Shown piece by piece: positions 5,029-21,893 of a stretch of DNA of 28,958 nt. Below the pieces are notes generated by a model. The model saw nothing but the letters and a program-made list of their open reading frames with translations. It was not told the origin of the DNA and searched no databases. Every line of letters begins with the position of its first letter. The stretch's first letter is position 1. Location: IMG/VR virus record IMGVR_UViG_3300035188_000624, positions 1 to 28,958 of that record; one strand, given 5' to 3'. The DNA comes from a virus. A program made the position numbers and the translations under genes.

Positions 5029-5032
5029 CCTG

Positions 5033-8027: not shown

Positions 8028-8049
8028 GCGCTCGAGGGAGCGCAGGAGG
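8028..8049 (+). promoter_or_regulatory. GAGG-tetraloop hairpin plus Shine-Dalgarno (copy 1)
   Basis: GCGCTC (8028-8033), loop GAGG, GAGCGC (8038-8043), directly followed by AGGAGG (8044-8049) and, after 5 nt, ATG 8055. These 22 bases are identical to copy 6 at 20541-20562, 12.5 kb away before an unrelated gene. Confidence 0.75.
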
Positions 8050-8054
8050 GCAGC

Positions 8055-8639
8055 ATGAGCGACGCGGCATTCCTGCCGGTGTCGACATGGGACGCAGGTC
8101 TCGTGCAGGCATACGCGGACCACTACACCGGTAGCCGCGGGGCGCCGCCGGGAAAGAAACTCGCGTGGCGCATCTTCACTGCCGGGCGCGCGCGCGGGTG
8201 GATTGTCCTCGGTGAGCCTTCATTCAAACTCGCGGCGAGGCGTTCGCTTGGCCTGATGGACGCTCGACCGCTGGCCTCGACCGTGTGCTGCGCGCTTTAC
8301 CGGGTCGACGCGCGACTGCCGGGCGAGCCATCGGCCGGTGACATCCTGCGCACGTGGCACGGCGTGGCAGCGGCAGAGTGGGCGGCGCGGTACGGGTGGA
8401 CGCCGTTGCACTGGGAGACGATGGTGGACCCGGCGGCGGTCTCGTCTGTGGTGCCCGGGGCATGCTTCAGGCGTGCCGGATATCGCGTCCTCGGGAACAC
8501 GACAGGGTGGGGCGCATCGAGGCCGGCAGGCAGCACGCGAGGCCCGCGAATCTGGACCAGCGGCAAGAGCCTGAAACTTGTGATGTATCGTGGGCCGCTC
8601 GCGCGGGTCGAGGTCACTGACGCACTGCGCGGCGTGTGA
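8055..8639 (+). CDS. DUF4338/DruA-like protein (Mom/GNAT-related type), moron in the tail module
   Basis: 194 residues. Family features in order: HYTG near residue 23, PGKKLAWRIF near 33, SFKLAARRSLG near 57, then ARYGWTPLHWETMVDP near 112 and CFRRAGYRVLGNTTGWG near 137. This order (HYLG - G..LRY - KLA.RD - YG..P...ETFVD - G.CYRAANW..LG.T.GRG) is what I recall of DUF4338, the family of DruA from the Druantia defence system, which also resembles phage DNA-modification acetyltransferase-like (Mom-type) proteins. Biochemical function in phages is not settled; DNA modification or counter-defence are options. It is flanked by tail genes but carries the hairpin ribosome binding site of the early genes, and the next gene has its own promoter, so it behaves as an inserted cassette. 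Confidence 0.6.
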   Translation: MSDAAFLPVSTWDAGLVQAYADHYTGSRGAPPGKKLAWRIFTAGRARGWIVLGEPSFKLAARRSLGLMDARPLASTVCCALYRVDARLPGEPSAGDILRTWHGVAAAEWAARYGWTPLHWETMVDPAAVSSVVPGACFRRAGYRVLGNTTGWGASRPAGSTRGPRIWTSGKSLKLVMYRGPLARVEVTDALRGV

Positions 8640-8645
8640 TACTCT
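8617..8645 (+). promoter_or_regulatory. Extended -10 promoter for a leaderless transcript of the distal tail genes
   Basis: CTGACG (8617-8622, 4 of 6 to TTGACA), 17-bp spacer, TGA-TACTCT (8637-8645). The TGA of the extended element is also the stop codon of the DruA-like gene. Six bases (8646-8651) separate the hexamer from GTG 8652, the same geometry as at 828 and 24192. Confidence 0.6.
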
Positions 8646-8651
8646 CGCCGC

Positions 8652-9713
8652 GTGGCGCGCACCATCCCCGGCTCCTACACCGCGGTCGACCCGCAGGCCC
8701 TGCTCACGGGCGAGGCGCTCAAGGCGTCGACCGTCACGCCGCTCGGGAGCGCTGTCAACTACCTCATGTCACAGGTCGCGCGGTGCACGGTCATCTCGCA
8801 GTCGTGGGCGCAGACGGGCGGCGCGTCGGTGTGTCGGCGCACAGCGGGCACGCTCGCCGAGTGCGCGCGGTGGGAGATTCCGCAGCTCGCCGGCGCGACT
8901 GCCGTCACCGTGACGCTCATCGCGCGCGTGGCTGCCGGGCCGGTGACCACACACGCGGTCGAGATACGCAGCGCCACGGGCGCGGCCACGCTCGCCATCG
9001 ACGCCGCAGACGGGCTCTCCACGTCCCTCGCGGTCTACTCGGGCAGCCTCGCGGTCGGGTTCGCAGGCGGGTACGAGAACATCACGATGCACCTGCTCGG
9101 CGACGGCGCAACGCCCGTCGAGGTGGTCGCGCTCCTCGTGCGGTATCCGGTGCTCTCCAGCCTCCCGACCGGGCGTCTCGCAGACGGGCGCATCGCGGTC
9201 GATGACGACGACATCGAGCCCGACAACCCGCTCTCGGCGCGCCTCGGGCACGACCTGCGCGGGTGCATGGCTGGGCTCGCGGCGCTGCCGCGCGTCCACG
9301 CCAACGTGAGCGACCTGCGCAACGTCGACACCGCGAGTCAAAACGAACTCGCCCCGTATCGGCACAGCTTCCCGGGCCCGCGCCTGCCCGACGTCGATGA
9401 CCGCGCGCTCGACCTCACGGTGCGCATCCGCACCACGTCGGCGGCAGACGGGCGCATCGTCCTGCGGCACTCTGGCGACGGCGAGCGCGGGCCTGTGGTT
9501 GAGGTGCAGGTCGGCGCCGGGGCTGCGCGCTCGATGAGCACGGCGACCATCCGCCAGCGCCCGGGGCAGGGCATCTCGCCGGCCTCGCTCGGCATCGATT
9601 GGCAGGCGGTCGGCATCGTGCCGCAGCATGACCCGGCGTTCGTCGACCGGCTCCAGGCCGACACGAGCACGGTGGACCAGGTGCACGGCGTCCTCGTGTG
9701 GGGGTGGACTTGA
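8652..9713 (+). CDS. Tail protein of unknown function
   Basis: 353 residues from a GTG start placed 6 bases after an extended -10 box, without a Shine-Dalgarno sequence. The N-terminal 170 residues are Ala/Thr/Val-rich beta (a possible receptor- or tail-surface fold), followed by an acidic linker (DDDDIEPDN) and a second beta-rich half with an HSGDGERGPVVEVQVG segment. No enzyme motif is visible. Position between Dit candidate and baseplate genes, and overlap with the next gene, make a virion role likely. I cannot name a family. Confidence 0.4.
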   Translation: MARTIPGSYTAVDPQALLTGEALKASTVTPLGSAVNYLMSQVARCTVISQSWAQTGGASVCRRTAGTLAECARWEIPQLAGATAVTVTLIARVAAGPVTTHAVEIRSATGAATLAIDAADGLSTSLAVYSGSLAVGFAGGYENITMHLLGDGATPVEVVALLVRYPVLSSLPTGRLADGRIAVDDDDIEPDNPLSARLGHDLRGCMAGLAALPRVHANVSDLRNVDTASQNELAPYRHSFPGPRLPDVDDRALDLTVRIRTTSAADGRIVLRHSGDGERGPVVEVQVGAGAARSMSTATIRQRPGQGISPASLGIDWQAVGIVPQHDPAFVDRLQADTSTVDQVHGVLVWGWT

Positions 9714-10363: not shown

Positions 10364-13300
10364 CCGTCGCCGCGCTCGACGTTCTCCGGGGTCGGCAGTG
10401 GGCGGTCGTGGTCACGGTCGCCGGGCTCACCGACCGCTACTACTCCGGCCCGCATCCCGACTCGCAGAACATCCCGGGCACGGGCGGCGCGCTGACCTAC
10501 CGCGACATCGAGGCCGTGCTGTCGCTCGGTCCCGAGTCGTGCAGCGTCGATGAGGTCGACGCCACGGTCGAGCAGTCGCCGGTGTCGGTTCGGCTCCTCG
10601 CTCGGGGCGCTGCGCTCTCGCCGCTCCACGCCACGACCACGGCGCGCACCGTCGACCCGCTCTCGACCCTGCGGCGCATCGGACCCCGGGGCGCGACGTC
10701 GAGGACCACGCTCGGCGCCACGCTCATCAGCGAGGCCGGGCCGTCCGTCATCACGTGCACGTCGGACATCAGCGCATGGACCGGGCTCATCCATTGCGGT
10801 CTCGAGGCGCTCCACGTCGCGGGCGCAGGCACCGGCTCTGCGCTCGACCTCGACGTGGCGCGCGGCGTGGCCTACACGCGCATCGCTCGGCACGTGTGGC
10901 AGCCGTCGCGCGGGTATCAGCCTGCGGTGACTCGCGAGGTCACGGCGTGGCGCGGGCGCGTCTGCATCGTGCAGGCGGCGCCGGTCGCGAACGGGGTGCG
11001 CGTCGGGTCGTACGCCGAGGTCTGGCGCGGCGTGCTCGACCGCGAGCCATCCCTCGCCGCTGACGGGCTCACGCTCGAGCTGCGTATCGCCCCGCTGTCG
11101 GCGCTCCTGCGGCAGCGGCTGTCCTCGGGCGCGACGAGCACGACCCTCGTGCGGGGCTGGCACTACATCGTGCCGGGGCAGGGCTCGCGCGTCACGCATG
11201 ACCAGATTTTTGAGCGTTCGGAGGCGTATCAGAGCCAGTACAAGGTCCACGGCGGGACCGATGCTGAGGTCGACATCCGGTGCTACCGCGCGCACGAGCG
11301 GCTTACCGACATCACTCTCGACCCGGACCATCCCCGCGGCGGGCAGATCGAGGTGGACACGGGCGGGGTGTCGACCACGCACGCGGTCACTGCGCGCGCA
11401 CTGGGCGGCGGCGGCGGCCGGCTGACCACGGACCCATCACCGGCAGCGCCTGCGGGCGGTGCGCCGTTCGGCCTCGTCGTCTCGCCCTATGTCGAGGAGC
11501 CGTGCACGCTCGAACTCGTCGACCCGACCGGCACGGGCGAGCTCGTGCGCTGGCCCGAGAGGGCGTTGCAGGTCATCGCAGGAACCTACGCGAGCGCCGT
11601 GACATGGAACGATACGCGGCACGACTGCGACCGATGGCGCATCGCTACGACGCAGGGGCGCCTCGGCCGATGGGCGCGGGTCGAGCTGGCGGGGGACGGG
11701 GCCGGGTGGCTCTGGCGCGCCGGGCTCATCGTCGGCGGAGCTGCGCGCGCGCCGCTCTCGCTGCGCTGGACCCCGGGCCTCGACGTGTGCGTCGGGGTCG
11801 ACTTCCGCGCCCCGGACGATGCGCGCAAGCTCTACGACCTCGAGGCGCAGAGCATCGCCATCCGCCGCGAGCGCGTCTCGGCCGACGCAGACCTCCGCGC
11901 GCTGGCCCGCATCCCGTGCCGAGGCCCTGCGCTCGCGTGGTACCAGGGTTCGGAGCGCCGGCTGCTCGTGGCGGATGACGTCTACTCCGGTGCGGGACAG
12001 CCGCAGATGATGCGCCTGAGCGGCGGCGACGAGAGCAACGACGCACGCGGGCACGTCGACGTCATCGTGACGGCCAGCTCCGCGGTCAACGACCCGGACA
12101 CGGGCGACCTCGTCGGCTACCTCCTGACCGTCTCGTGGGTCGACGATGACCGGCGGTACATCCTCGACCGCGGCACGCCCATCACGGTCACGCCGCAGGC
12201 CCGGTCACAGGGCGTCGACCCGGGCATCCTGCTTCTGCGCCTACTCCAGTCGGGCGGGGGCGGGCAGGTCCACGGGGCCTACGACGTCCTGCCCTACGGC
12301 GCGGGCCTCGACGATGACGACATGCTCGAGGACTCATTCTCTGCGCTCCCGATGCCCGAGCCCCTGCGCGGCGTCTCGGCTGACGTGTCGGGCTCCTCGA
12401 CCGTCGCTGACGTCATGGGCGGCGTGCTGACGCTCATCGGCGCAGCGGTCGTGCAGCGGTGGGCAGACGGGCGGCAACGCCTCGTGTGTACGCCCATCGG
12501 GCCGGCGCCATCGGCCGACGCGGTCATGGTCATCACGGACGCCGACATCCTCGCGGACGGTCAGTGCGTCTCGACGGTCGACGGGCGGGTTGTGCGCTCG
12601 TATCGCATCGAGAGCGACCACGACGCAGCCGGTGAGCCCGGGCGCGTGACGACCTACGTAGACAGCGATGCGGTCGACGCGACCGGGGGCGACGCGGGCG
12701 AGCAGATGACGCTCGACCTGCGGCACATCCGCCTCGACGGCGGGGGCGCAGATGCGGCGGTGCTGTTGCTCCCGGTCATCCAGCACCTGCGACGTCGCGC
12801 CGGCGTGCCTCGCGTGCGGTACCAGGTCGCGGTCAGTGCGGACCACGTGGGAGCGCTCGAGGTCGGGGTCGGCGACACGGTCACGCTGACCTGCTCGTCT
12901 GCGGTCGGCATCGACGGGACGCTCGGCCTGACCTCGGAACCGTGCCGCGTGCTCGGCGTCGAGCGGGACTGGCTGGGGAATCGCGTGCAGCTGACCCTCG
13001 GCGCAGCAGGCCTCCGACCCTCGGGGTGGGCACCGTCGCTGCGGGTCGCGTCGGTCAGCTCGCCGACCGTCGTGGTGGTCAGCGCGAATCAGTACACGAG
13101 CGCTGTCTGCCCGCGCACGGGCGAGGCGCAGACCGACATTGGGCGCACGTCCCTCGCCTACTTCGCGGTCGGCGACAAGGTGCGGTGCATCCCTGCGGGC
13201 GCGTGGGCGAGCGGTGGCGAGGTCACCATCACCGTCATTGCGGGCAACACCGTGACGTTCGGCGCGGCTCACGGCCTCGCGGCGGGCGACGACATCGACC

Positions 13301-13407
13301 ACGCAGACTACGACGATGCGAGCGCGGCAGCGCGGGTCTATGCCTACCTGAGCGATGCCGCGCACACGCTCGGGACTGCGGCGGCACGGGGTCGCGACGT
13401 AGGCTAG
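10360..13407 (+). CDS. Large tail-tip/baseplate hub-like protein
   Basis: 1015 residues, the largest product in the window, ATGA overlap start. It is beta-rich throughout. Residues from about 640 on contain DVMGGVLTLIGAAVVQRWADG and later strand-rich repeats typical of tail-tip proteins that build the central hub and contact the host (analogous place to lambda J or siphophage Tal). A Gly-rich linker (ALGGGGGRL) lies near residue 350. It is the last gene of the structural run before a regulatory region, so it probably ends the late operon here. Function as receptor-binding platform is inferred from size and place. Confidence 0.5.
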   Translation: MTVAALDVLRGRQWAVVVTVAGLTDRYYSGPHPDSQNIPGTGGALTYRDIEAVLSLGPESCSVDEVDATVEQSPVSVRLLARGAALSPLHATTTARTVDPLSTLRRIGPRGATSRTTLGATLISEAGPSVITCTSDISAWTGLIHCGLEALHVAGAGTGSALDLDVARGVAYTRIARHVWQPSRGYQPAVTREVTAWRGRVCIVQAAPVANGVRVGSYAEVWRGVLDREPSLAADGLTLELRIAPLSALLRQRLSSGATSTTLVRGWHYIVPGQGSRVTHDQIFERSEAYQSQYKVHGGTDAEVDIRCYRAHERLTDITLDPDHPRGGQIEVDTGGVSTTHAVTARALGGGGGRLTTDPSPAAPAGGAPFGLVVSPYVEEPCTLELVDPTGTGELVRWPERALQVIAGTYASAVTWNDTRHDCDRWRIATTQGRLGRWARVELAGDGAGWLWRAGLIVGGAARAPLSLRWTPGLDVCVGVDFRAPDDARKLYDLEAQSIAIRRERVSADADLRALARIPCRGPALAWYQGSERRLLVADDVYSGAGQPQMMRLSGGDESNDARGHVDVIVTASSAVNDPDTGDLVGYLLTVSWVDDDRRYILDRGTPITVTPQARSQGVDPGILLLRLLQSGGGGQVHGAYDVLPYGAGLDDDDMLEDSFSALPMPEPLRGVSADVSGSSTVADVMGGVLTLIGAAVVQRWADGRQRLVCTPIGPAPSADAVMVITDADILADGQCVSTVDGRVVRSYRIESDHDAAGEPGRVTTYVDSDAVDATGGDAGEQMTLDLRHIRLDGGGADAAVLLLPVIQHLRRRAGVPRVRYQVAVSADHVGALEVGVGDTVTLTCSSAVGIDGTLGLTSEPCRVLGVERDWLGNRVQLTLGAAGLRPSGWAPSLRVASVSSPTVVVVSANQYTSAVCPRTGEAQTDIGRTSLAYFAVGDKVRCIPAGAWASGGEVTITVIAGNTVTFGAAHGLAAGDDIDHADYDDASAAARVYAYLSDAAHTLGTAAARGRDVG

Positions 13408-13410
13408 GGT

Positions 13411-13497
13411 CGTTGCGGCGCAACGGTCTGGGAAGAAAGTGTCAAAAAGCGCAAGTGGGCTATTGACCGGCGCAATGGGCTGTGCGATGGTCTGTTC
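13411..13497 (+). promoter_or_regulatory. Early operator-promoter region, copy A
   Basis: Perfect inverted repeat CGTTGC-GGC-GCAACG (13411-13425); then a 38-base block (13436-13473) matching copy B at 17254-17291 with one mismatch. Inside it GTCAA...TTGAC arms form an imperfect palindrome covering the -35 box TTGACC (13463-13468); a 17-bp spacer leads to TGC-GATGGT (13483-13491). Predicted transcription start about 13498, giving a 5' leader of about 64 nt that includes hairpin copy 2. Confidence 0.65.
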
Positions 13498-13532
13498 ACC
13501 GAGGCGATGTGCCACGGTGCAAAACAGCAGAG

Positions 13533-13554
13533 GCGGCCGAGGGGCCGCGAGGAG
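13533..13554 (+). promoter_or_regulatory. GAGG-tetraloop hairpin plus Shine-Dalgarno (copy 2)
   Basis: GCGGCC, loop GAGG, GGCCGC (13533-13548), then GAGGAG (13549-13554); ATG 13562 follows after 7 nt. Same stem as copy 5 at 17343. Confidence 0.75.
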
Positions 13555-13561
13555 AGACAGC

Positions 13562-13723
13562 ATGGACAATAAGAAGTCAAGGCCAGGTCGCCGAGTGTCT
13601 GAGGAGGAGAATGCGCGCCAGATTCAGCGAATGCGCGACGCGCTCGTCAGGCTGCGGGCCGCTTCTCTCGTCAGGGCAGCGGCACGGGCGGCCAGGGATG
13701 GCTCCATCGGGTACGACGCCTGA
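13562..13723 (+). CDS. Small basic protein of unknown function, first gene of early operon A
   Basis: 53 residues, strongly basic and helical (EEENARQIQRMRDALVRLRA, then SLVRAAARAARDG). Start set by the hairpin-associated GAGGAG 7 nt upstream. As the promoter-proximal gene of an early operon it could be a small regulator or host-directed protein, but nothing in the sequence names it. The 122 bases after it contain a CGCCC-TCCG-GGGCG hairpin (13730-13743) without a T-run. Confidence 0.5.
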   Translation: MDNKKSRPGRRVSEEENARQIQRMRDALVRLRAASLVRAAARAARDGSIGYDA

Positions 13724-13818
13724 CCGCCGCGCCCTCCGGGGCGTCTCGATGGGTCGCACGCCGTCAGCCTGCACGCTGGCGCGACCTGCACGCCATGGTG
13801 GCGACTGATGACGGCACG

Positions 13819-13840
13819 GCGCCCAGGGGCGCGAAGGAGG
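13819..13840 (+). promoter_or_regulatory. CAGG-loop variant of the hairpin plus Shine-Dalgarno (copy 3)
   Basis: GCGCC, loop CAGG, GGCGC (13819-13832), one extra G, then AAGGAGG (13834-13840) and ATG 13846 after 5 nt. Shorter stem and first loop base changed relative to the other copies. Confidence 0.6.
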
Positions 13841-13845
13841 ATGAG

Positions 13846-14088
13846 ATGGTACAGGCTACAATGTCGCCTGCGATGGAGATGTCCCAGAGTCAGGCGCTCG
13901 ACTTCGCGGCGGAGTTGGCCGCTCGACCGAGCCGGTATGCGTGGTCGGTCACCGTGCGCGGGCAGCAGGGCGGCAATGTGACGGTCGACTGCATCGGCGT
14001 CGAGGAGGACCGCGTGGTGCTGACGTGCACGCTCAAAGAGTGGGCGCGCGCCTGCCTGAGCGCGGCGAACGCGGCGGTGCTCGGGTGA
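13846..14088 (+). CDS. Hypothetical early protein
   Basis: 80 residues from ATG 13846, chosen for the AAGGAGG at the right distance; an in-frame ATG at 13795 would add 17 residues and include the hairpin in the coding region. It has a Met-rich start, a helical segment (QALDFAAELAARPSRYAW) and a beta-rich end (NVTVDCIGVEEDRVVLTCTL). The NVTVD segment recalls the 17372 product, also first after an early promoter. Function unknown. It overlaps the following HTH gene by GTGA. Confidence 0.5.
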   Translation: MVQATMSPAMEMSQSQALDFAAELAARPSRYAWSVTVRGQQGGNVTVDCIGVEEDRVVLTCTLKEWARACLSAANAAVLG

Positions 14089-14324
14089 TTTCCCTCGACA
14101 CCATCGAGCCGGGCGCGGTCCCGGCCTACGTCACAATCGAAGCCTGCGGCTCCTGCGGCGGGGGCGCGCAACTCGCGGCCGTGCTCGGGGTCCGCGCTGC
14201 CACCGTGTCGCGGTGGGCGAACGGGCACGCGCGGCCCAACGTGCGCCACATGCGGACCCTCTGCGCGCTCGCCGGGGTCGAGATTGTCGAAGCGCGGCGA
14301 CGCTGGAAGGAGGCGCGGCAATGA
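14085..14324 (+). CDS. Cro/CI-type helix-turn-helix protein
   Basis: 79 residues from GTG in a GTGA overlap. The helix-turn-helix is clear at about residues 32-65: AQLAAVLGVRAATVSRWANG followed by a third/fourth helix VRHMRTLCALAG. Proteins of this size with only an XRE-like HTH are usually Cro-like repressors or small regulators. It is inside early operon A downstream of the duplicated operator, so it may bind those operators; that link is inference. The next gene starts in an ATGA overlap. Confidence 0.65.
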   Translation: MISLDTIEPGAVPAYVTIEACGSCGGGAQLAAVLGVRAATVSRWANGHARPNVRHMRTLCALAGVEIVEARRRWKEARQ

Positions 14325-15121
14325 GCATCGTAGACACCGTCGCAGCAGCCGACCCGCTCGGCCCGACCGCCATCGTCATCGCCTCGTCATCGCTCGCCCC
14401 GGAGGCGCTGCGCGGCAAGCCGCAGGACGCGCTCCTGGTCCTGATGACCGGCCGCGAACTCGGTATCGGTCCCATGCAGGCGCTGCGCATGGTCACCGTC
14501 ATTCGCGGCCGCGTCACCCTCTCGGCGGACGCCACCATTGCCCTTGTTCGCCGCTCTGACCAGTGCGTCGAGTGGCGCATGGTGGAGTCGACCGCAGAGC
14601 GCGCGACCTACTCCACGACCCGGCGCGGCGACGCCTCGCCGACCGTGCTCACGTGGACCATGGAGCAGGCGCGCGTCGCCGGCCTCGTGCGCGGCGGCGG
14701 GCAGTGGCAGACCTACCCCGAGGCGATGCTCCGGGCGCGGTGCGCCGCAGCTCTCGCGCGCATCGTGTATCCCGACCTGGTCGCAGGGGTGTACGACCCG
14801 GACGAGCTCGCCGGCACCGACGCGCCCGTGGCGACCTCGCGACCTGCGCCGGCCGCAGTCCCTGCGCCCGAGTCTGCCGACGAGCGCCGCGACGCCACGG
14901 CGCGCATTCTCGCGCACGGCGACGACGCGGCGGAGTACATCGAGGAGATGCTTCAGCGCGACGGCCTCGACCTCGGCACGGCGCCGCTCGGGCGCGTCAA
15001 CGGTGCAGCGTCCTACCTCGACACGCAGCGCGGGGCCGACGCGCTCGAGGCGTGGCGGGCGCGGCGAGAGGCTGCGCTGTCGGCGCCGGTCGAGTATCCG
15101 GGGGAGGGCGACCATGAGTGA
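14321..15121 (+). CDS. RecT-family-like single-strand annealing protein
   Basis: 266 residues. It shows the pattern of phage RecT-like proteins: TGRELGIGPMQALRMVTVIR near residue 44, then GRVTLSADATIALVRRS, a beta core (RATYSTTRRGDASPTVLTWT), AGLVRGGGQWQTYPEAMLRA near 127 and ALARIVYPDLVAGVYDPDEL near 145. The C-terminal third is acidic and low complexity. RecT proteins anneal complementary strands during phage recombination. No partner 5'-3' exonuclease is recognisable in the window; SSB (16459) and a RecU-like resolvase (21890) are nearby partners in recombination. Overlaps the next gene by 8 bases. Confidence 0.6.
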   Translation: MSIVDTVAAADPLGPTAIVIASSSLAPEALRGKPQDALLVLMTGRELGIGPMQALRMVTVIRGRVTLSADATIALVRRSDQCVEWRMVESTAERATYSTTRRGDASPTVLTWTMEQARVAGLVRGGGQWQTYPEAMLRARCAAALARIVYPDLVAGVYDPDELAGTDAPVATSRPAPAAVPAPESADERRDATARILAHGDDAAEYIEEMLQRDGLDLGTAPLGRVNGAASYLDTQRGADALEAWRARREAALSAPVEYPGEGDHE

Positions 15122-15467
15122 CCGATGGGACCTGGTGTCCCTCATTATCGGCGCCGCGCTGGGGGCCGTCGCAGTCGGCGCACTCGCGCTGCGCTCGGGG
15201 GAGTCGATGGCGCAGGAGTCGGCGCGCATCGTGGCAGCGTGCGCTGCGCAGTGCGAGGCCGCAGACCTCGACGCGCGGGCCGAGTGCACGGCGGCGCATG
15301 ACGCCACGGAGGCCGCGACGATGGCGCACGCGGCGGCGCTGGCGGAACTCGCCGCGCGGTGCGTTCTTTCGCTCCCGGCGTCGGAGCGGCTGCGGAGTGC
15401 GAAGGTGCGGCGCGAGCCGGTCATCGACGTGTGGCACGAGGGCGACGAGGACGGCGGCCATGAGTGA
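15114..15467 (+). CDS. Small membrane-anchored protein of unknown function
   Basis: 117 residues. A single hydrophobic helix (LVSLIIGAALGAVAVGALAL) at about residues 7-27 follows a short charged N-terminus, then an Ala-rich helical region with four Cys residues (AACAAQCEAADLDARAEC) and an acidic C-terminal tail. It lies inside the recombination genes with overlaps on both sides (8 bases each). A membrane-anchored helical protein in an early operon could act on the host envelope or be an exclusion protein, but there is no family match I can name. Confidence 0.5.
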   Translation: MSDRWDLVSLIIGAALGAVAVGALALRSGESMAQESARIVAACAAQCEAADLDARAECTAAHDATEAATMAHAAALAELAARCVLSLPASERLRSAKVRREPVIDVWHEGDEDGGHE

Positions 15468-15678
15468 CGAGGTGCACTTGGCCCGCGCGCTCGTGCGGGC
15501 GATACAGGCCGAGAGGCTGGAGCGGGCAGAGATGGAGGTCGAGCGGCTGCGCGCAGAGGTGCGGCGGCTGCTCGAGGAGAGAGACGAGGCGCGGCAGTCC
15601 GTGGTGGACCTGACCGCGCACATCAGCGAGACGATGCGCCGAGGGGCGCGAGGAGATGACGATGCAGATGAAGTCTGA
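15460..15678 (+). CDS. Small coiled-coil protein
   Basis: 72 residues, almost entirely heptad-like charged helix (AERLERAEMEVERLRAEVRR) with an acidic C-terminus. Start ATG overlaps the previous gene by 8 bases. Its last 40 bases contain hairpin copy 4 and the ribosome binding site of the ParB-like gene, whose start overlaps it. Function unknown. Confidence 0.5.
   Translation: MSDEVHLARALVRAIQAERLERAEMEVERLRAEVRRLLEERDEARQSVVDLTAHISETMRRGARGDDDADEV
15636..15655 (+). promoter_or_regulatory. GAGG-tetraloop hairpin plus Shine-Dalgarno (copy 4)
   Basis: GCGCC, loop GAGG, GGCGC (15636-15649), then GAGGAG (15650-15655) and ATG 15662 after 6 nt. It lies inside the end of the upstream coding region. 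ATG 15656 directly abuts the Shine-Dalgarno and is too close, which decides the start of the next gene. Confidence 0.7.
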
Positions 15679-16456
15679 GGTGGTGCTGGTCGACCCTGTG
15701 CTCGCGGCGCTGTGGCTGGCGAAGAACTACGCGAGCAATCGGCCGATGCGCCCGGGGACGGTGAAGAGTTACGCGGAGCTGATGAAGGCCGGAGAGTGGC
15801 AGTTGACGCACCAGGGGGTCGCGTTCGACGCGGCAGGCGTGCTCATCGACGGGCAACACCGGCTCGCTGCGGTGGTCGAGGCAGGCGCAACGGTGCCGAT
15901 GATGGTCACAGTCGGCGTTCCAGTGGCTGCGTTCGCCGCAACAGATTGCGGCGTGCGCCGCAGCGTCGGCGACCGTCTGGTGCTTTCGCGCCGTCTCGTG
16001 GCCGTCCTGACCGCAGCCGATGCTGTCGCGAACGGGCGCAAACGTATCGCTCGGCCGACCCAGATTCGCGCAATCGCAGACTCACAATTCGGCCGGACCG
16101 CTGCTGCTCTGCTCGAGACGAACGGCACGCAGAAGCGCGCGATGTCGAGCAGCTGGGTTGGGCTCGCGGCAACCGTCGCGGTCCTCGAAGGGCAGGATTT
16201 TGAATGGGTCGCAGAACAGCGGCGCGTCCTCGTCTGTCAAGACGAAGACTGCGAGACGCCTGTTGCGCGGTGCTTTCGCCGTCGCTTCCAGAACTTCCAT
16301 TGCAGCGCGGACCCGTACCCAAACATGGAAATTCTCGCGGCTGCGCTGCTGGTATTCGACCGCTTCGAAATCAGCACCAAGTTGATCAAGCTGTTGGGCG
16401 AATGGCGTGAAGACACTCGCGTGCGCGTCAGCACGGCACTGAACGAAGGGACGTGA
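15662..16456 (+). CDS. ParB/sulfiredoxin-fold-like phage protein
   Basis: 264 residues. Residues 20-75 show the common phage ParB-like N-terminal pattern: [20 protein letters not shown], then [15 protein letters not shown] and a following beta strand (VPMMVTVGV). In ParB-type proteins the xxGxHRxxA segment binds nucleotide or acts in a nuclease-like fold; for phage versions the substrate is mostly unknown. The C-terminal half has [18 protein letters not shown] and less biased codons (more GAA, AAT, TTT, CAA) than its neighbours, suggesting a different history for that half. There is no partner ATPase (ParA), so a partition role is unlikely. Confidence 0.55.
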
Positions 16457-16458
16457 GC

Positions 16459-16941
16459 ATGGCATCGGTCAACAAGGTGATTCTGGTCGGCAACCTCGGG
16501 GCTGACCCGGAGGTGCGGTACACGCAGGGCGGTGAGCCTGTGTGCGAGCTGCGCCTCGCGACGTCGGAGCAGTGGACCGACAAGGCCGGCGCGAAGCAGG
16601 AGCGCACCGAGTGGCACACCATCAGCGTGTGGGGCAAGACCGCGGAGCTGTGCGGGCAGTACCTGGCGAAAGGCCGGTCGGTCTACGTCGAGGGCTCGCT
16701 CCGGACCCGTGAGTACACCGACAAGGAGGGCGTCAACCGGAAGGCGTGGGAGGTGCGCGCTGACAAGGTCACCTTCCTCGGCGGCGGCGAGGAGCGACCG
16801 CAGCGGGGCAACGCGTCGGGCGGCACGGGTGCGGGTGGCGGCGGATGGCGCGGCGGGCAGACGCAGGGCGGCAGCGGGCAGGGGGGAGGCTTCGGCGGGT
16901 CGCAGGGGGGAGGCTTCGGCGATGACCCCATCCCCTTCTGA
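16459..16941 (+). CDS. ssb: Single-stranded DNA-binding protein
   Basis: 160 residues. OB-fold of bacterial SSB at residues 1-110: [18 protein letters not shown], then [13 protein letters not shown] and [21 protein letters not shown] Gly/Gln-rich linker follows and the protein ends with DDPIPF, the acidic tip that recruits replication and repair proteins. ATG 16459 is preferred over GTG 16453 because GAAGGGA lies at a suitable distance. The linker DNA holds a 20-base direct repeat (16878-16897 and 16902-16921), whose second copy supplies the ribosome binding site of the next gene. It probably coats single strands during replication and RecT-driven annealing. Confidence 0.92.
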
Positions 16942-17227
16942 CGCCCGCGTCTGGTCCGTCCTCGACGCCGTGCACATCGACGGACCCCGCACGCTCGTCA
17001 CCCTCGAGCGGCCGCAGCGCCCCGGCGAGGAGCGCGTCCTCTCGCGTGGGGCGTGGCACATGACCCTCACCCACGGCGAGGGGCTCGGCCTCGACGCCTA
17101 CGCCGGGCAGGTGCGCATCGTGCGCTCGGGCCCGCTCGATGGGCACGAGGTCGCGCTCGTCGAGGTGCCGGGCATGGTCGACGTGCGGCGTAGCGATTCG
17201 TTGCGGGTCGCTTTCGCGCGGCTGTAA
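16922..17227 (+). CDS. Hypothetical protein, end of early operon A
   Basis: 101 residues, overlapping the ssb end by 20 bases. GGGGGGAGG in the ssb linker lies 8 nt before ATG 16922. The product is beta-rich with charged loops ([20 protein letters not shown]) and no known motif. It is the last gene before operator-promoter copy B. Confidence 0.5.
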
Positions 17228-17228
17228 G

Positions 17229-17315
17229 CGTTGCGGCACAACGACTTCGGAACAAAGTGTCAAAAAGCGCAAGTGCGCTATTGACCGGCGCGTCGGGGCG
17301 TGAGAGTGTCTGTTC
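17229..17315 (+). promoter_or_regulatory. Early operator-promoter region, copy B
   Basis: CGTTG-CGGCA-CAACG (17229-17243) matches the palindrome of copy A; block 17254-17291 matches copy A with one mismatch. Here the arms GTCAA-AA-AGCGC and GCGCT-A-TTGAC pair better than in copy A. The -35 box TTGACC is 17281-17286, spacer 17, then TGA-GAGTGT (17301-17309). Predicted start about 17316; leader about 56 nt with hairpin copy 5. Confidence 0.65.
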
Positions 17316-17342
17316 ACCGGGCCGCAGTGGCGCGGTGATGAG

Positions 17343-17364
17343 GCGGCCGAGGGGCCGCGAGGAG
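17343..17364 (+). promoter_or_regulatory. GAGG-tetraloop hairpin plus Shine-Dalgarno (copy 5)
   Basis: GCGGCC, loop GAGG, GGCCGC (17343-17358), GAGGAG (17359-17364), ATG 17372 after 7 nt. An out-of-frame ATG at 17367 sits in the spacer. Confidence 0.75.
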
Positions 17365-17371
17365 ACATGCC

Positions 17372-17608
17372 ATGGAAATCCGCATCGAGTCGTGTAAGGG
17401 CAACGTGACGGTCGACAGCTTCGGTCTCGCCGGTGAGTGGCTCGAGGAGATGCAGCCGAGCATCATCGAGGTGACCGTCGACGGGCTCGACATTGGCTGC
17501 GGCGAGGCCGTCATGTCGCCGTGTGACGAGGATGGCGTGTATGACGCTGCGCTCGCGCGCCGCGCTCTGCGTCTCGCCTACCATGCTGCGCAGGCGGCTG
17601 CCGTATGA
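17372..17608 (+). CDS. Small acidic protein, first gene of early operon B
   Basis: 78 residues. Alternating strands and helices (NVTVDSFGLAGEWLEEMQP; IIEVTVDGLDIGCGEAV; AALARRALRLAYHAAQAA). NVTVD is shared with the first half of the 13846 product, otherwise no similarity is obvious. It lies directly downstream of a strong operator-promoter and hairpin element, so it is likely among the earliest proteins made. Function unknown. ATGA overlap with the next gene. Confidence 0.5.
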   Translation: MEIRIESCKGNVTVDSFGLAGEWLEEMQPSIIEVTVDGLDIGCGEAVMSPCDEDGVYDAALARRALRLAYHAAQAAAV

Positions 17609-17991
17609 TTCCCGCGTCCATCACTCCCGATTGGGTCGGCCTCGTGCTGGCCCACGCCACGCCCGAGGTCCGCGAGCGGTTCGCCGCGTGCGGGCTATCG
17701 ATGGCACACATGCAGTCGGCGCACTGGACGCATGTCCGGTTCCGATGGCTGTCCGGCCTGCACATCGCGCTCGGGCCGAGCCCGACGCCCGTATCTGCCA
17801 TCATCGCGGGCTCGTACTGGTCCGCCATGCACGACGAGCGGGTCATCAGCATACTGATGGGCGCGTGCTCCGAGCATGTCGGGTCCGGCATCGCGCAGGC
17901 CGTCGCCGAGCGACTCGTGGCGACCATCGAGGTCGAGTCGCTCGCGGCGTCGACGCATGACCGCATCGTTGCCATGGGGTCCCGCCGATGA
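17605..17991 (+). CDS. Hypothetical early protein
   Basis: 128 residues, ATGA overlap on both sides. Mixed helical protein with several Trp and His residues (SMAHMQSAHWTHVRFRWLSG) and an Ala/Val-rich C-terminal helix (IAQAVAERLVATIEVESL). No transmembrane segment or known motif. Part of early operon B. Confidence 0.45.
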   Translation: MIPASITPDWVGLVLAHATPEVRERFAACGLSMAHMQSAHWTHVRFRWLSGLHIALGPSPTPVSAIIAGSYWSAMHDERVISILMGACSEHVGSGIAQAVAERLVATIEVESLAASTHDRIVAMGSRR

Positions 17992-18530
17992 GCACCACGA
18001 GCGACAACGAGCGCCCAGAGCGCCGCGCGGAGTATGCCTACGAGCACGGGCCGGAGTGGGTCGCGTTCGAGGCCGAGCTCGCCGCGTGGCGCCGGGGCGG
18101 CATGGTCGGCGACCCGCCTGCGATGCCTGACCCGTTGACCGCGGGGCGCTCGACGCAGGGCGGGGTCACGAGGCCGTGCCAAGTCAGGGCGCGGGGTGTC
18201 GACGTGCGCGGAGCAGTGCTCGCGGCGCCGCTGATGACGCCGCTGTCGCAGCTCGGGGCCGTGCACTGGCGCCACCTGGGCGCGACCGTCACGACCGGGG
18301 ATTCCGGGTTCGGCGTCGCCGCTGACGCCGACATCCTCGCCGGCCGCATGCTCGACGCGCTCTGGCGCGCGCTCGGTCTGCCGATGGGCGTCGCCGGCCG
18401 CGCGCAACTCCGGGGCGCCGAGGCGGAGCGGCTCATGCTTGCCATCGCGCCGGCCATCGAGGACGCAGCGGCCGCAATCATGCCCGCGCTCATGACCGCC
18501 GACATGGCGGCTATCGAGCGGGGCGAGTAG
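17988..18530 (+). CDS. Hypothetical early protein
   Basis: 180 residues, ATGA overlap start. Charged N-terminus (DNERPERRAEYAYEHGPEWV), Gly/Ala-rich middle, and a helical Ala/Met-rich C-terminus. I see no motif that names it. Last gene of operon B before the HNH endonuclease gene. Confidence 0.45.
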   Translation: MSTTSDNERPERRAEYAYEHGPEWVAFEAELAAWRRGGMVGDPPAMPDPLTAGRSTQGGVTRPCQVRARGVDVRGAVLAAPLMTPLSQLGAVHWRHLGATVTTGDSGFGVAADADILAGRMLDALWRALGLPMGVAGRAQLRGAEAERLMLAIAPAIEDAAAAIMPALMTADMAAIERGE

Positions 18531-18537
18531 GTGCCGG

Positions 18538-18966
18538 ATGCAATCCTGTTGGGAGTGCGACGCCGCTCCTCCCCTGCATGACCATCACGTGGTCCCGCGC
18601 AGCAGGGGGGGCACAAGGACTGTCCCGCTCTGCGAGCCCTGCCACGGTAAGGTGCACGACAAGGATATGGCCATCTCGGCCATGATTCGCGAGGCTCACG
18701 CGCGCATCAGGAAGCATGGAGGCGTGCCGCCTGGCCACCCTCCACTTGGCTATAGCAAAACTTCTGGCGCGTTGACCATCGACCCAACAGAGCGCGCCTT
18801 GTTGTTCCGGATGCATCAGCTTCGCGCATCTGGCCTGAGCATCAGAAAGATCGCTGCGGCGCTGAGTGGTGAGGGCTTTCGGTCGCGCACCGGCGGGCCG
18901 ATTCAATCGACGACCGTCGCTCGTGCGCTGCGAGCCGAGCCAGAGCAACTGATCATCCCGCTCTGA
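18538..18966 (+). CDS. HNH endonuclease fused to a serine-recombinase-like DNA-binding domain
   Basis: 142 residues. HNH/McrA-type nuclease at residues 4-40: CxxC (4, 7), DHHVVPRSRGG (15-25) and LCEPCHGKVH (31-40), which gives the zinc-binding cysteines and catalytic His. The second half from about residue 62 (PPLGYSKTSGALTIDPTE, then ASGLSIRKIAAALSGEGF, RSRTGG, TVARAL) follows the pattern of the 'recombinase' domain behind the catalytic core of large serine integrases/resolvases, without the catalytic core itself. This suggests a free-standing homing-type endonuclease that uses the domain for target binding. Its ribosome binding site is weak and its codons are less GC-biased than neighbours, in line with an inserted gene. 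Confidence 0.7.
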   Translation: MQSCWECDAAPPLHDHHVVPRSRGGTRTVPLCEPCHGKVHDKDMAISAMIREAHARIRKHGGVPPGHPPLGYSKTSGALTIDPTERALLFRMHQLRASGLSIRKIAAALSGEGFRSRTGGPIQSTTVARALRAEPEQLIIPL

Positions 18967-18972
18967 CGCTGG

Positions 18973-19056
18973 TTGCATCTTGCGTTGCAACTTGCATCCG
19001 ACCTTGCACCGCAAGTCGTGGCGCGTCATTCGCGCGCACGACACTTGCGCCCGCAA
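18973..19056 (+). promoter_or_regulatory. Cluster of TTGC/GCAA half-sites (operator or origin-related)
   Basis: TTGC occurs at 18973, 18980, 18985, 18992 and 19004, with GCAA at 18987 and 19011. GTTGCAAC (18984-18991) is a perfect palindrome and TTGCG-CC-CGCAA (19045-19056) another. The half-site resembles the CGTTGC/GCAACG palindromes of the early operators at 13411 and 17229. The region is non-coding and lies just before an HTH gene. No convincing promoter could be fixed; TATCAC at 19076 is a weak -10 candidate. Confidence 0.5.
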
Positions 19057-19081
19057 ACAAAATGTGCGCACTGTGTATCAC

Positions 19082-19097
19082 GCGCTGAGGAGGGCGC
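19082..19097 (+). promoter_or_regulatory. Possible divergent hairpin with the Shine-Dalgarno inside the loop
   Basis: GCGCT, loop GAGGAG, GGCGC (19082-19097) would place the Shine-Dalgarno GAGGAGG in the loop and stem rather than after it; ATG 19103 follows. It may be a degenerate member of the GAGG hairpin family or a chance pairing. Confidence 0.3.
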
Positions 19098-19102
19098 AGA
19101 CG

Positions 19103-19306
19103 ATGCTCGACCTTGAACGGTTCCACGGCGACCACATGACCATCGCAGACCTCGCGCACATCGCGCGTGTGGATTTCTCGACCGCGTGGCGGTGGGTCGC
19201 ACGCGGCGCGCGGCCCTCGTCGGCCGATGCACGGCGGCGGCTTAAGCGTCGCGGCCTGTGGCGCGAGGCTGCACCGACCTCGACACCTGGCACGGTCGCG
19301 CCGTGA
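19103..19306 (+). CDS. Small helix-turn-helix DNA-binding protein
   Basis: 67 residues. HTH at about residues 12-32 (MTIADLAHIARVDFSTAWRW) followed by VARGARPSSADARRRLKRRG, a basic helix. GAGGAGG lies 9 nt before ATG 19103. It is directly downstream of the TTGC/GCAA half-site cluster, which suggests autoregulation, and directly upstream of the replication initiator (GTGA overlap). It could act as a Cro-like or CII-like switch for replication genes; this role is inferred. Confidence 0.6.
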   Translation: MLDLERFHGDHMTIADLAHIARVDFSTAWRWVARGARPSSADARRRLKRRGLWREAAPTSTPGTVAP

Positions 19307-20181
19307 GCTGGGTCCGCATAGACTGCGATGTACCGATGGACGGGCGTCTCTGCGCGTCCGGTCACGCGTGGGCGTGGCCTGCTGTCGTCGCTCGAGCGAA
19401 GGCCGGCGACGGGCGAGTCAAGATGCGGGAGTGCACCGCGCGAATTATGGCCTACCTGTGGGGACCGTCGCCGGAGGCGTGGCAGGCGGCGCTCGACCAT
19501 CTGCTCGAGGTCGGCCTGCTCATCGTCGATGGCGACGCGTACCTCGTGGCGGGCTGGGACGAGTACCAGCGGGACAACACCGGCGCCGAGAGGCAGCGGC
19601 GTCACCGAGCGTCACGGCGTAACGGTGACGTAACGGACGGTCACGCGACGTCACGTGACATAACGGCGAGTAACGGTGACGTAACGTTACGTCACGTGAC
19701 GTCGCGTGACGGTCACGCCTACAGTACAGGACATACAGTACACACAGGACAGGACATACAGGTCGCTGCTGACGCAGCTCCCACGCGCACGCAGGGGCGC
19801 GCGCACGAGGCAGCGGCGGCGACGGCTCCAGCACCGGAAGGGCTCTCGGGCTGCCTCGAGGCGTGGCGTCTGGCGCTGCGCAGTGCACGAGGCTCGGCAC
19901 CGATGATGGTCGGGGCGCTCGACGCGGACGCCATCCAGCGCCACGTCGAGGCCAAGGGAGCGCCGCACGTCCTCGCCTGCATCCAGCGGGCGGCAGAGGT
20001 CGCAGGCGGCAGCGGGCCGTCGCTGGCTCTCCTAGGCCGCATCGTGGCCGAGGGCATACACGACAGCACCCGACCCGTCCGCGCGCCTTCTGGGGGGCGC
20101 CAAGGCCCGGCAGGGCGCAAGTCCGTCAATGCCGCGTGGGCGACCGTGCAGGAATCGGCAGAGGAGGGTGAGAGATGGTAA
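19303..20181 (+). CDS. Phage replication initiator/replisome organizer candidate (lambda O-like arrangement)
   Basis: 292 residues from GTG in a GTGA overlap. The N-terminus has a winged-helix-like replisome organizer style: SWVRIDCDVPMDGRL, then ARIMAYLWGPSPEAWQAALD, HLLEVGLLIVDGDAYLVAGW and DEYQRDN. Residues 100-155 are low complexity, encoded by a dense repeat array. The C-terminal half is helical (AIQRHVEAKGAPHVLACIQR). A DnaC-type loader follows at 20568, so initiator plus loader with repeats inside the initiator gene copies the lambda O/P/ori plan. The call is by context, N-terminal style and the array; I see no enzyme motif. Confidence 0.55.
   Translation: MSWVRIDCDVPMDGRLCASGHAWAWPAVVARAKAGDGRVKMRECTARIMAYLWGPSPEAWQAALDHLLEVGLLIVDGDAYLVAGWDEYQRDNTGAERQRRHRASRRNGDVTDGHATSRDITASNGDVTLRHVTSRDGHAYSTGHTVHTGQDIQVAADAAPTRTQGRAHEAAAATAPAPEGLSGCLEAWRLALRSARGSAPMMVGALDADAIQRHVEAKGAPHVLACIQRAAEVAGGSGPSLALLGRIVAEGIHDSTRPVRAPSGGRQGPAGRKSVNAAWATVQESAEEGERW
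19601..19762 (+). other. Candidate replication origin: iteron-like array plus AT-richer repeats inside the initiator gene
   Basis: 19601-19718 is packed with GTnAC/CGTnAC elements. GTAACGGTGACGTAACG occurs exactly at 19619-19635 and 19670-19686; palindrome GTCACGTGAC occurs at 19650-19659 and 19691-19700. Directly after it, 19721-19762 has much lower GC than its surroundings and repeats ACAGGACATACAG (19726-19738 and 19749-19761). Iterons followed by an easily melted region is the lambda-type origin plan. Confidence 0.6.
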
Positions 20182-20414
20182 GCATTGACCCGGGACATCT
20201 CGACGCGCTGCTCTCAATTCTCGTGGCGCCTGATTCGCGCGCAATCCTCACGAACCGCCCGACTCGCGACCGCGACGAGGGGTGTGCTCGGCGGCGAGCT
20301 CGTGACGCGCTGCTCGACCTCATCGCGGGGCGGAATCTGACCGAGGGCGAGCGGCTCGACGCGATTCGCAGGGCGTGCGGACGGTTGACAGCCGCACCGG
20401 GGCGTGCGACATGA
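20175..20414 (+). CDS. Small charged protein in the replication operon
   Basis: 79 residues, overlapping the initiator gene by 7 bases, with GAGGAGGG 6 nt or so before ATG 20175. Helical and charged (TRDRDEGCARRRARDALLDL; TEGERLDAIRRACGRLTA). No known motif. Placed between initiator and helicase loader, so a replication accessory role is possible. Confidence 0.5.
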   Translation: MVSIDPGHLDALLSILVAPDSRAILTNRPTRDRDEGCARRRARDALLDLIAGRNLTEGERLDAIRRACGRLTAAPGRAT

Positions 20415-20584
20415 GCACAGCGACCGAGGGGTCGCGAGGTGCTACGCAGCGCAGCCGGCAGGCCGCTCCTCCCGCTAACGCGGTGGTCGGTCGGTCCCTA
20501 CACCGACGCCCCGGCGGTGGCGATACCGGGGCACTTTTGCGCGCTCGAGGGAGCGCAGGAGGTCGACATGGATTCACTTGCTGA
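20411..20584 (+). CDS. Short doubtful ORF between replication genes
   Basis: 57 residues from ATG 20411 in an ATGA overlap. Composition is Arg/Gly-rich and unstructured, and the end overlaps the helicase loader start by 17 bases. It contains the orphan hairpin copy at 20420. The overlap start fits the operon style, but the sequence may only be a remnant of a gene that once followed the orphan hairpin. Confidence 0.3.
   Translation: MSTATEGSRGATQRSRQAAPPANAVVGRSLHRRPGGGDTGALLRARGSAGGRHGFTC
20420..20439 (+). promoter_or_regulatory. Orphan GAGG-tetraloop hairpin (copy without gene)
   Basis: GCGACC, loop GAGG, GGTCGC (20420-20435), followed by GAGG (20436-20439). No ATG, GTG or TTG lies at a usable distance: GTG 20439 overlaps the GAGG itself. 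The stem uses an A-U pair where other copies have C-G, G-C or U-G. Confidence 0.55.
20541..20562 (+). promoter_or_regulatory. GAGG-tetraloop hairpin plus Shine-Dalgarno (copy 6)
   Basis: GCGCTC, loop GAGG, GAGCGC (20541-20556), AGGAGG (20557-20562), ATG 20568 after 5 nt. Identical over 22 bases to copy 1 at 8028. It decides the start of the helicase loader. Confidence 0.75.
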
Positions 20585-21311
20585 CCTGCTCGGCGACTTC
20601 GGCGGGGGCGGTGGCGACGACACACCGCGCCCTCCGCTGGCCTGGTCCGACGTCGTGCAGGTCGAGCGTGACGGAGCGTGCGCGTGGGATGCGCCGCGCT
20701 GCGGCGTCTGCGCCGGGGTCGAGGCCGTCGACGGTGTGCGGTGCCCGTGCGCGGGGATTGTGGCCCGCGCTCGACGTCTCACGCTGGCCCGCATCCCGTG
20801 GACGTACCGCGCTGCGACGCTCGACCCGGGCGGCCCTGCTGCGGCGTGGGTCGAGGCGTGGACCTCGAGGTCGATGGGCCTGCGCCTCGTCGGCCCGACC
20901 GGCACCGGCAAGACGCATCGGTCATGCGCTCTGGTCCGCGCGCTCTGCGACCGTCGAGTGTCGGCGAGATATGTGCTCTGGTCGGAGTGGGTGCGGCGGT
21001 ACCGAGACGCCATCGGGCGCGAAGTCGACCAACACGGTATGCGGGCGCGGGTGCTGACGCCCGACGTGGTCGTGCTCGACGACATCGGGCGCGAGCGGGT
21101 GACGGAGTACGCGGCGGAACTGCTCGACGAGGTGCTCGGCGGCAGGCTCGACGACGGCAAGACGACGGTCATCGCGAGCAACCTCGACGACGCGGGGCTG
21201 GCGGAGCACATCGGCGACCGGTTGTGGTCGAGGTTGCGCGGGGCGACGAGGCGAGCGGAGATGGTGGGTCCAGACAGGCGCGTCCGAGGGGGCGCAGGAG
21301 GTCGAGTATGA
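20568..21311 (+). CDS. DnaC-type helicase loader (AAA+ ATPase)
   Basis: 247 residues from ATG 20568, chosen for the hairpin/Shine-Dalgarno element; a longer in-frame reading from GTG 20439 exists but lacks a good ribosome site. A cysteine cluster in the N-terminal domain (CGVCAGVEAVDGVRCPC, about residues 45-61) resembles the zinc-binding region of DnaC/phage loaders. Walker A GPTGTGKTH is near 108, Walker B VVVLDDIGRE near 167, a sensor-1-like TTVIASNL near 203 and an Arg-rich C-terminus (RLWSRLRGATRRAE) with a probable sensor-2/Arg finger. It should load the host replicative helicase at the origin bound by the 19303 product. Confidence 0.85.
   Translation: MDSLADLLGDFGGGGGDDTPRPPLAWSDVVQVERDGACAWDAPRCGVCAGVEAVDGVRCPCAGIVARARRLTLARIPWTYRAATLDPGGPAAAWVEAWTSRSMGLRLVGPTGTGKTHRSCALVRALCDRRVSARYVLWSEWVRRYRDAIGREVDQHGMRARVLTPDVVVLDDIGRERVTEYAAELLDEVLGGRLDDGKTTVIASNLDDAGLAEHIGDRLWSRLRGATRRAEMVGPDRRVRGGAGGRV
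21280..21301 (+). promoter_or_regulatory. GAGG-tetraloop hairpin plus Shine-Dalgarno (copy 7)
   Basis: GCGTCC, loop GAGG, GGGCGC (21280-21295) pairing through one G-U, then AGGAGG (21296-21301) and ATG 21308 after 6 nt. Located inside the 3' end of the helicase loader gene. Confidence 0.7.
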
Positions 21312-21646: not shown

Positions 21647-21893
21647 CATCCTCGGGCGCGCGCTGCGGCGTATCGCCCTCGAGTGGCAGCGTCGCGAGGT
21701 GAGCGCGGCACGGCGTGCGCTCGCGGAGTCGGCGCAGGAGGCCCGCGATGCGGAGGCACAGGCCGATGAGTCGGCGCGTCTGGCACGGGTCGACGCGATG
21801 CGGGTCCGCGTGGCGCGGGCGATGGAGTCGCACTGCGCGTCGATGCTGCGCGAGGCAGAGGCAGACCTCGACGCGATGCGGAGGGACGTATGA
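21639..21893 (+). CDS. Small all-helical protein
   Basis: 84 residues, almost all charged helix (ALRRIALEWQRREVSAARRA and ARLARVDAMRVRVARAMES). GAGGAGGA lies 9 nt or so before ATG 21639, and the gene overlaps both neighbours. Function unknown; it precedes the resolvase candidate. Confidence 0.5.
   Translation: MGDILGRALRRIALEWQRREVSAARRALAESAQEARDAEAQADESARLARVDAMRVRVARAMESHCASMLREAEADLDAMRRDV

Follow-up and report, generated by a model that had tools for sequence, protein, structure and literature searches.

A GAGG-loop hairpin fused to the Shine-Dalgarno sequence before exchangeable genes of an uncultivated phage clade: covarying stems and a probable role in translation initiation

What does a short hairpin do when a phage repeats it directly against the ribosome-binding sites of a subset of its genes? 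This question is raised by an IMG/VR virus record (IMGVR_UViG_3300035188_000624), the 28,958 bases of which, with a GC content of about 71%, are referred to here as the window. The element consists of a stem of 5 to 6 bp of the form GCG..CGC, a GAGG loop (CAGG once), and a strong Shine-Dalgarno (SD) sequence abutting the 3' side. The sequence-only reading of the window had reported this layout for seven genes, together with an eighth copy at 20420 that lacks a gene start, and all eight copies were located as claimed (Table 1). Judged from sequence comparison, the element is most likely a portable module for the control of translation initiation.

The hairpins are 14 to 16 nt in size, with stems of 6 bp in six copies and of 5 bp in two (13819 and 15636). 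They are separated by 0 to 2 nt from an SD that reads AGGAGG, GAGGAG, or AAGGAGG. The ATG lies 5 to 7 nt past the SD in the window, and the spacing from SD to start ranges from 4 to 8 nt in relatives. The claim that the stems vary while pairing is kept holds for all window copies, with the refinement that copy 21280 contains a U.G wobble and that two stems are shorter. Within the window, an A-U pair at the variable position is found in the orphan copy alone. Many other genes of the window have an SD and no hairpin.

A scan of the window was carried out with a rule that required a GAGG or CAGG loop, a stem of at least 5 bp, an SD within 3 nt, and a start codon behind it. It returned seven matches on the plus strand and none on the minus strand, compared with a mean of 0.006 and a maximum of 1 in 500 dinucleotide shuffles. 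When any tetraloop was accepted, eight matches were observed versus a shuffle mean of 0.82 (maximum, 5), which places the excess mostly within the GAGG family. The contrast was weaker for the plain pattern GCGNNGAGGNNCGC when a single mismatch was allowed, with 44 occurrences found and 28.1 expected.

Close relatives of the phage were obtained from IMG/VR by pattern and protein scans. Two of them (G001 and G003) represent practically the same phage as the window, being 100% identical over long stretches, and are not independent. In three others (G004, G005, and G006), most long blocks are about 83 to 97% identical to the window at the DNA level, and the block near the DnaC-like gene is 74% identical. 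The protein at the right end of the window matches no family, and we take it from its motifs to be the large terminase. Based on this terminase-like protein, a sister group of 40 IMG/VR loci was defined (68 to 72% identity to the window protein); these loci amount to 413 kb of partial contigs, many of them covering just a few kilobases around the terminase.

Table 1. Positions of the hairpin copies and associated features in the window (G004 and G005 are relatives of the phage)
Feature	Positions	Strand	SD	Gene behind	Remarks
Hairpin GCGCTC-GAGG-GAGCGC	8028-8043	+	AGGAGG	8055-8639	Same hairpin in G005
Hairpin GCGGCC-GAGG-GGCCGC	13533-13548	+	GAGGAG	13562-13723 (53 amino acids)	
Hairpin GCGCC-CAGG-GGCGC	13819-13832	+	AAGGAGG	13846-14088	5-bp stem; loop GAGG in G004 and G005
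Hairpin GCGCC-GAGG-GGCGC	15636-15649	+	GAGGAG	15662-16456	5-bp stem; in 3' end of gene 15118-15678
Hairpin GCGGCC-GAGG-GGCCGC	17343-17358	+	GAGGAG	17372-17608	
Orphan hairpin GCGACC-GAGG-GGTCGC	20420-20435	+			
Hairpin GCGCTC-GAGG-GAGCGC	20541-20556	+	AGGAGG	20568-21311 (DnaC-like)	
Hairpin GCGTCC-GAGG-GGGCGC	21280-21295	+	AGGAGG	21308-21646	One U.G; in 3' end of DnaC-like gene
Promoter-like TTGACA-N17-GACATG	20385-20413	+			Found by eye; promoter scan returned none
Candidate leader RNA	20436-20540	+			From orphan hairpin to hairpin of DnaC-like gene; recognized by conservation
Upstream repeat, copy 1	13411-13532	+			Inverted repeat CGTTGCGGCRCAACG and TTGACC promoter-like box before hairpin, by eye
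Upstream repeat, copy 2	17229-17342	+			Same inverted repeat and box

Covariation was assessed in 30 sites (22 of them distinct) that had been chosen by pairing and come from the window and four further contigs. Pairing was found in 124 of 124 scored cells. The three outer pairs were invariant, and the loop differed once among the 22 distinct sites. At stem position 4, CG occurred 10 times, GC 8 times, AU twice, and GU and UG once each; at position 5, the counts were 16 for CG, 4 for UA, and 2 for UG. Both sides were changed in 15 cells. The covariation score was 0.333, compared with 0.117 in shuffles and 0.091 in the best slid register, and none of 500 shuffles reached it, in a kind of test that relatedness among sites inflates.

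Because the sites above had been chosen in this way, scans blind to pairing were carried out as well. On one strand, the clade contains 27 distinct places where GAGG is followed by 4 to 9 nt, an SD, and a start codon, and 22 of them have a stem of at least 5 bp. Of the five without such a stem, two are ordinary sequence (window 15438 and L054 875), two represent the look-alike of gene 21639 that is described below (L046 2853 and L051 10416), and one is a family copy with a single mismatch (L055 8080). In the sister loci, the same one-strand scan gave 14 distinct places, and a stem was present at none of them. Both variable positions pair in all 27 listed rows of the clade that match the sequence skeleton, redundant contigs included, versus 3 of 20 rows among the matches listed from elsewhere in IMG/VR.

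The same behavior is seen at homologous slots. The hairpin of the DnaC-like gene, GCGCTC/GAGCGC in the window, reads GCGGCC/GGCCGC in G004 and GCGGTC/GGCCGC in G006. The orphan hairpin changes from GCGACC/GGTCGC to GCGGCC/GGCCGC in G006, so that A-U becomes G-C by substitution on both sides, and slot 13533 shows GC, AU, and GU at one pair. At slot 17343, the copy of G006, when aligned with those of the window and G004, has one base less in each arm and forms a perfect 5-bp stem. Slot 21280 reads GCGCTC/GGGCGC in G004; in G006, it contains a single A.C mismatch, and the gene that would follow is absent. Taken over copies and over slots, the compensatory changes exceed the shuffle and slid-partner controls, and the pairing-blind checks agree with them. 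This supports the earlier proposal of an RNA structure under selection and makes a DNA site or plain reuse of sequence the less likely readings. It is as if structure were needed in the middle of the stem and particular letters at both of its ends.

The genes behind the hairpins are not constant. Ends of homology blocks were compared between the window and G004, G005, and G006, with hits of up to 120 nt and the short cross-hits of a 156-nt repeat (see below) excluded. Nine of the 19 right-hand block ends fall between −5 and +35 of a hairpin 3' end, a zone that makes up 1.1% of the window, whereas none of the 19 left-hand ends lies near a hairpin; the nine ends fall at six slots and are not independent. 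The downstream gene was kept (identity times coverage of at least 70%) in 3 of 16 comparisons of hairpin genes versus 69 of 77 comparisons of other genes (Fisher P = 3e-8), or in 4 of 16 when a borderline case is counted as kept (P = 4e-7). These comparisons are not independent either, and four that fall at contig ends in G004 were dropped from the tests.

Individual slots show what differs between the phages. At slot 13562, four phages have four proteins with no convincing mutual similarity (best E value, 0.026 over 19 residues). At slot 8028, the upstream DNA of relative E is near-identical and is followed by a different perfect hairpin of 6 bp (loop GGGG), then by AGGAGG and a different gene; this hairpin may have come with its gene. 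The gene of slot 15636 is absent from G004, where GCGCAC-GAGGG-GTGCGC and AGGAGG precede the SSB gene, and at slot 17343 G006 has another gene behind the hairpin. An extra unit of hairpin, SD, and gene lies in G004 between the positions corresponding to 784 and 800 of the window (including L050:8610) and is present in neither the window nor G005 nor G006. In G006, gene 8055 and its hairpin are both missing. Because the contents of slot 13562 differ, G004 has an additional unit, and gene 8055 is missing together with its hairpin, the module appears both to stay in place while genes change and to arrive or leave with genes.

The sequence-only reading had held that a lack of further copies in relatives would speak against the family, and many copies were found in close relatives. 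The slots of the close clade are the eight of the window, three outside it, and the unit of G004 alone. Those outside precede a small gene beside the terminase, the next small gene, and the prohead protease (phrog_53), the last with a GAGC loop. Loop versions other than GAGG include CAGG (window), GGGG (relative E), GAGC, and GAGGG (G004). The 40 sister loci yielded no GAGG hairpin next to an SD in one scan of both strands and one of a single strand, and the RecT relatives outside the clade (L228 to L232) show none either. The proposed search with a covariance model of the family gave 40 matches of at least 25 bits, all in the close clade, a partly circular result in that most of the 40 had built the model. 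The separation was imperfect: the CAGG copy scored 20.7 bits and the mismatched copy L055 8080 scored 18.0 bits, and the best sister match (L077), which is not an SD hairpin of the GAGG kind, scored 21.0 bits.

The fusion to the SD, the covariation at the RNA level, and the placement before individual genes argue that the element would act in the mRNA, at the initiation of translation. Less weight attaches to what it does there, and the roles proposed earlier for the loop (ribosome standby site, decoy, or binding site of a regulator) look alike at the sequence level. Over an insulated ribosome site, we lean tentatively, with a little less than even confidence, towards an operator for an RNA-binding factor. 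The short hairpin, which stands against a strong SD at about a dozen genes of one uncultivated phage clade, would then be a cis-acting RNA module. Recognition by a factor from the phage or its host would involve the GAGG loop together with its closing pair and the GCG/CGC pairs lower in the stem, which would account for the fixed outer pairs and loop. Seated against the SD, the factor would raise or block the binding of the ribosome, and control would extend jointly to every gene that has the module. New genes would enter this set either with a module of their own or by insertion behind an existing one. A further step, in which this plug-in module defines a phage-wide translational regulon, any gene placed behind it falls under a single shared control, and the hairpin serves as regulatory address and as docking point for gene cassettes alike, is conceivable and rather on the improbable side.

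Several observations weigh against an operator of this kind or temper the structural evidence behind it. Scans of part of the genes with Pfam, PHROGs, and NCBIfam named no RNA-binding regulator. The GGGG loop, with its different stem, at slot 8028 of relative E and the GAGC and GAGGG loops are unfavorable to a strict reader of the loop, and the constant GCG and loop could result from recent spread. Two of the five covariation measures were not striking, as the number of pairs with two-sided change (2) was reached by 386 of 500 shuffles and the number of further pair types (6) by 35 of 500. The family copy L055 8080 has one mismatched pair. In predicted folds of 115 nt, the probability of the hairpin was at least 0.90 in 8 of 15 cases and at most 0.02 in 4 of 15.

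A serious contender, albeit a doubtful one on balance, is a self-contained, insulated ribosome-loading site, where the hairpin shields the SD from variable GC-rich neighbors and no dedicated protein is involved. The SD-like loop may then offer the anti-SD an additional, weak point of contact (standby), and a foreign gene would be translated in any context. Predicted accessibility of the SD is in line with this, with a mean unpaired value of 0.58 for hairpin genes (n = 15, window and G004) versus 0.28 for seven other SD genes of the window. So are the marking of variable genes by the module and the persistence of the layout with other stems and loops (GGGG, GAGGG, and GAGC) at some slots. However, accessibility barely changed (from 0.58 to 0.54) when the 5' arm was held single-stranded in the folds, which weakens a pure insulator, and the constant GCG/CGC outer pairs and near-constant GAGG are left unexplained.

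It is distinctly unlikely that the element serves mRNA processing or stability by capping the 5' ends of transcripts started or cut just upstream and thereby slowing their decay. The orphan hairpin, which starts 6 nt behind the promoter-like sequence, would suit such a role, but copies 15636 and 21280 lie within the coding 3' end of the preceding gene, and stability needs no fixed fusion to an SD. Even less probable is a site that works at the DNA level, either as a palindrome bound by a protein or as a short homology serving purely as a linker for the recombination of cassettes. The right-hand block ends just behind hairpins and the RecT-like annealing protein encoded by the phage fit this explanation, and Pope et al., where they deal with the repeats of cluster K, suggest them as possible recombination targets (PMC3203893). 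Against it, the variable letters always pair, wobble pairs are present, the 5-bp and 6-bp versions shift the half-sites, and a mere linker would be expected to keep its letters unchanged instead of showing compensatory changes; use as a linker may still be a by-product. Chance pairing of GC-rich sequence around SDs, which a GC content near 71% and the 0.82 any-tetraloop hairpins expected per shuffled window would favor, is reduced to a negligible prospect by the expectation of 0.006 for the GAGG form and by conservation and covariation in relatives.

Short hairpins with purine-rich loops, as in the GAGG element, are also known from CsrA/RsmA sites and lambdoid boxB. In CsrA targets, the motif in the loop is often accompanied by another in the SD, and CsrA requires GGA in the loop; a CsrA-type site was rejected for the present element, whose loop lacks GGA. 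The boxB hairpin differs in having a pentaloop and in being part of an antitermination site.

Among repeats of actinobacteriophages, start-associated sequences (SAS) have been described since 2011 in cluster K mycobacteriophages and later in cluster EF Microbacterium phages, with a role that was still regarded as unclear in 2020 (PMC3203893, PMC7302621). SAS resemble the hairpin element in several ways: they recur within a phage group, are asymmetric and almost always in one orientation, and mark the ribosome-binding sites of some of the genes, which often belong to different families (PMC3203893, PMC7302621). In contrast, SAS are a 13-bp consensus (GGGATAGGAGCCC; GGGAAAGGACCCC) that includes an SD-like part, whereas the hairpin element does not match this consensus, has its SD outside, on the 3' side, and has a covarying stem. 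The extended SAS are 17-bp imperfect inverted repeats whose departures lend no support to pairing; their authors find little support for an mRNA hairpin and favor DNA-binding sites (PMC3203893). The hairpin element, with its compensating changes, is not one of these. The likeness to SAS and the difference from them, both noted earlier, are supported: the same place and habit with another sequence and an SD outside it.

An operator of the gp43 type is bound by a protein that lowers translation. In the translational operator to which gp43 of T4 and RB69 binds, a hairpin lies upstream and a further stretch overlaps the ribosome site, and loop letters are common to both phages (PMC3014915). The hairpin element shares with it a conserved hairpin with a site at the ribosome-binding site, and differs in serving about a dozen genes, in abutting the SD, and in having a binder that is only hypothetical. 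The gp43 operator is the nearest mechanism and SAS the nearest kind. The repeats of cluster O and cluster EG actinobacteriophages, described there as dyads of 17 to 18 bp, are repeated palindromes like the present element (PMC4351075, PMC7302621). Unlike it, those of cluster EG lie 14 to 22 bp upstream of starts and are not fused to the SD (PMC7302621), and those of cluster O, as reported, have arms invariant in 34 copies and no close link to starts (PMC4351075). Among the open PMC papers listed by the literature searches, none was recognized as describing the GAGG hairpin-SD family. The family is separate from SAS, and what is new here is that homology breaks just behind the hairpins. In this family, which lies at the seams of gene swaps, covariation speaks positively for an RNA structure joined directly to the SD, and the questions of how such elements act and how acquired phage genes come under control become approachable.

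The orphan hairpin is followed by a candidate leader RNA that reaches to the hairpin of the DnaC-like gene. It differs at 3 (G004) and 5 (G006) of about 95 positions, compared with 13 to 15% in the surrounding blocks (simple binomial, P = 0.0007 and 0.002, respectively). In the consensus fold predicted from three distinct sequences, GAGGUGC pairs with GCACUU and thereby encloses the domain as a whole. Five columns of this fold vary: three are found in a single tetraloop, one retains a predicted pair, and one disrupts a predicted pair in some rows; the sole two-sided change is the orphan hairpin itself. Single-sequence energies were not clearly under those of shuffles (z of −1.16 and −0.11). 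Under the operator reading, the orphan hairpin, together with the conserved leader, would form the first half of a doubled operator before the DnaC-like gene. It is also possible that the stretch is a protein extension of that gene, with which it is open in frame in the window (open reading frame 20439-21311); a stop was read in the frame of G006. The leader also contains a CCGC..GCGG hairpin, with the loop TAAC, TCAC, or TTCG across three phages, and the anti-SD-like run CTCCTCCC.

Two of the hairpins, those at 13533 and 17343, are preceded by the 156-nt repeat (13411-13566 and 17229-17376; 77.6% identical), whose spans lead into them. In G006, a gene for a Cro-like helix-turn-helix protein (PF01381) sits behind the hairpin adjoining slot 13562, and because of this position the repeat may be an operator of the Cro-like protein.

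Other identities were rejected for the hairpins or the window. No T-run follows the hairpins, and a scan of 13000-22500, which holds seven of the eight copies, gave no intrinsic terminator behind them. The window had no Rfam match at the gathering score, and a tRNA identity was rejected after a scan. A degenerate look-alike precedes gene 21639 (21600-21639) in the window and in G004; it consists of AGGCGC, the 8-nt loop TCGAGGCT, and GCGCTT, followed by GAGGAGG. A gene of about 131 to 134 amino acids has a GC-rich hairpin before its SD in both the clade and the sister group (L067:14960-15000, L077:14694-14729, and L073:9626-9661), with unrelated stems and loops; from gene order, our guess is that it is the same gene in both.

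In the collection of cultured phage records, no match to the window was found by DNA (16 kb of the window), by a 1031-amino-acid protein, or by the terminase-like protein, and a RecT protein query returned 364 records, all below 60% identity. When GTDB genomes were scanned with the terminase-like protein, no relative was obtained. Clade and sister group together comprise 49 IMG/VR loci with this protein, and the virion-region proteins tested are almost without family matches. Two clade contigs (L236 and L237) cover mainly 1-7724 of the window, a part free of hairpins, and are uninformative on the element. The genes of the window include those for the RecT-like annealing protein, SSB, the DnaC-like loader, and a DNA methyltransferase. 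A 142-amino-acid protein encoded at 18538-18966 contains an HNH motif and weakly matches part of a serine-recombinase domain.

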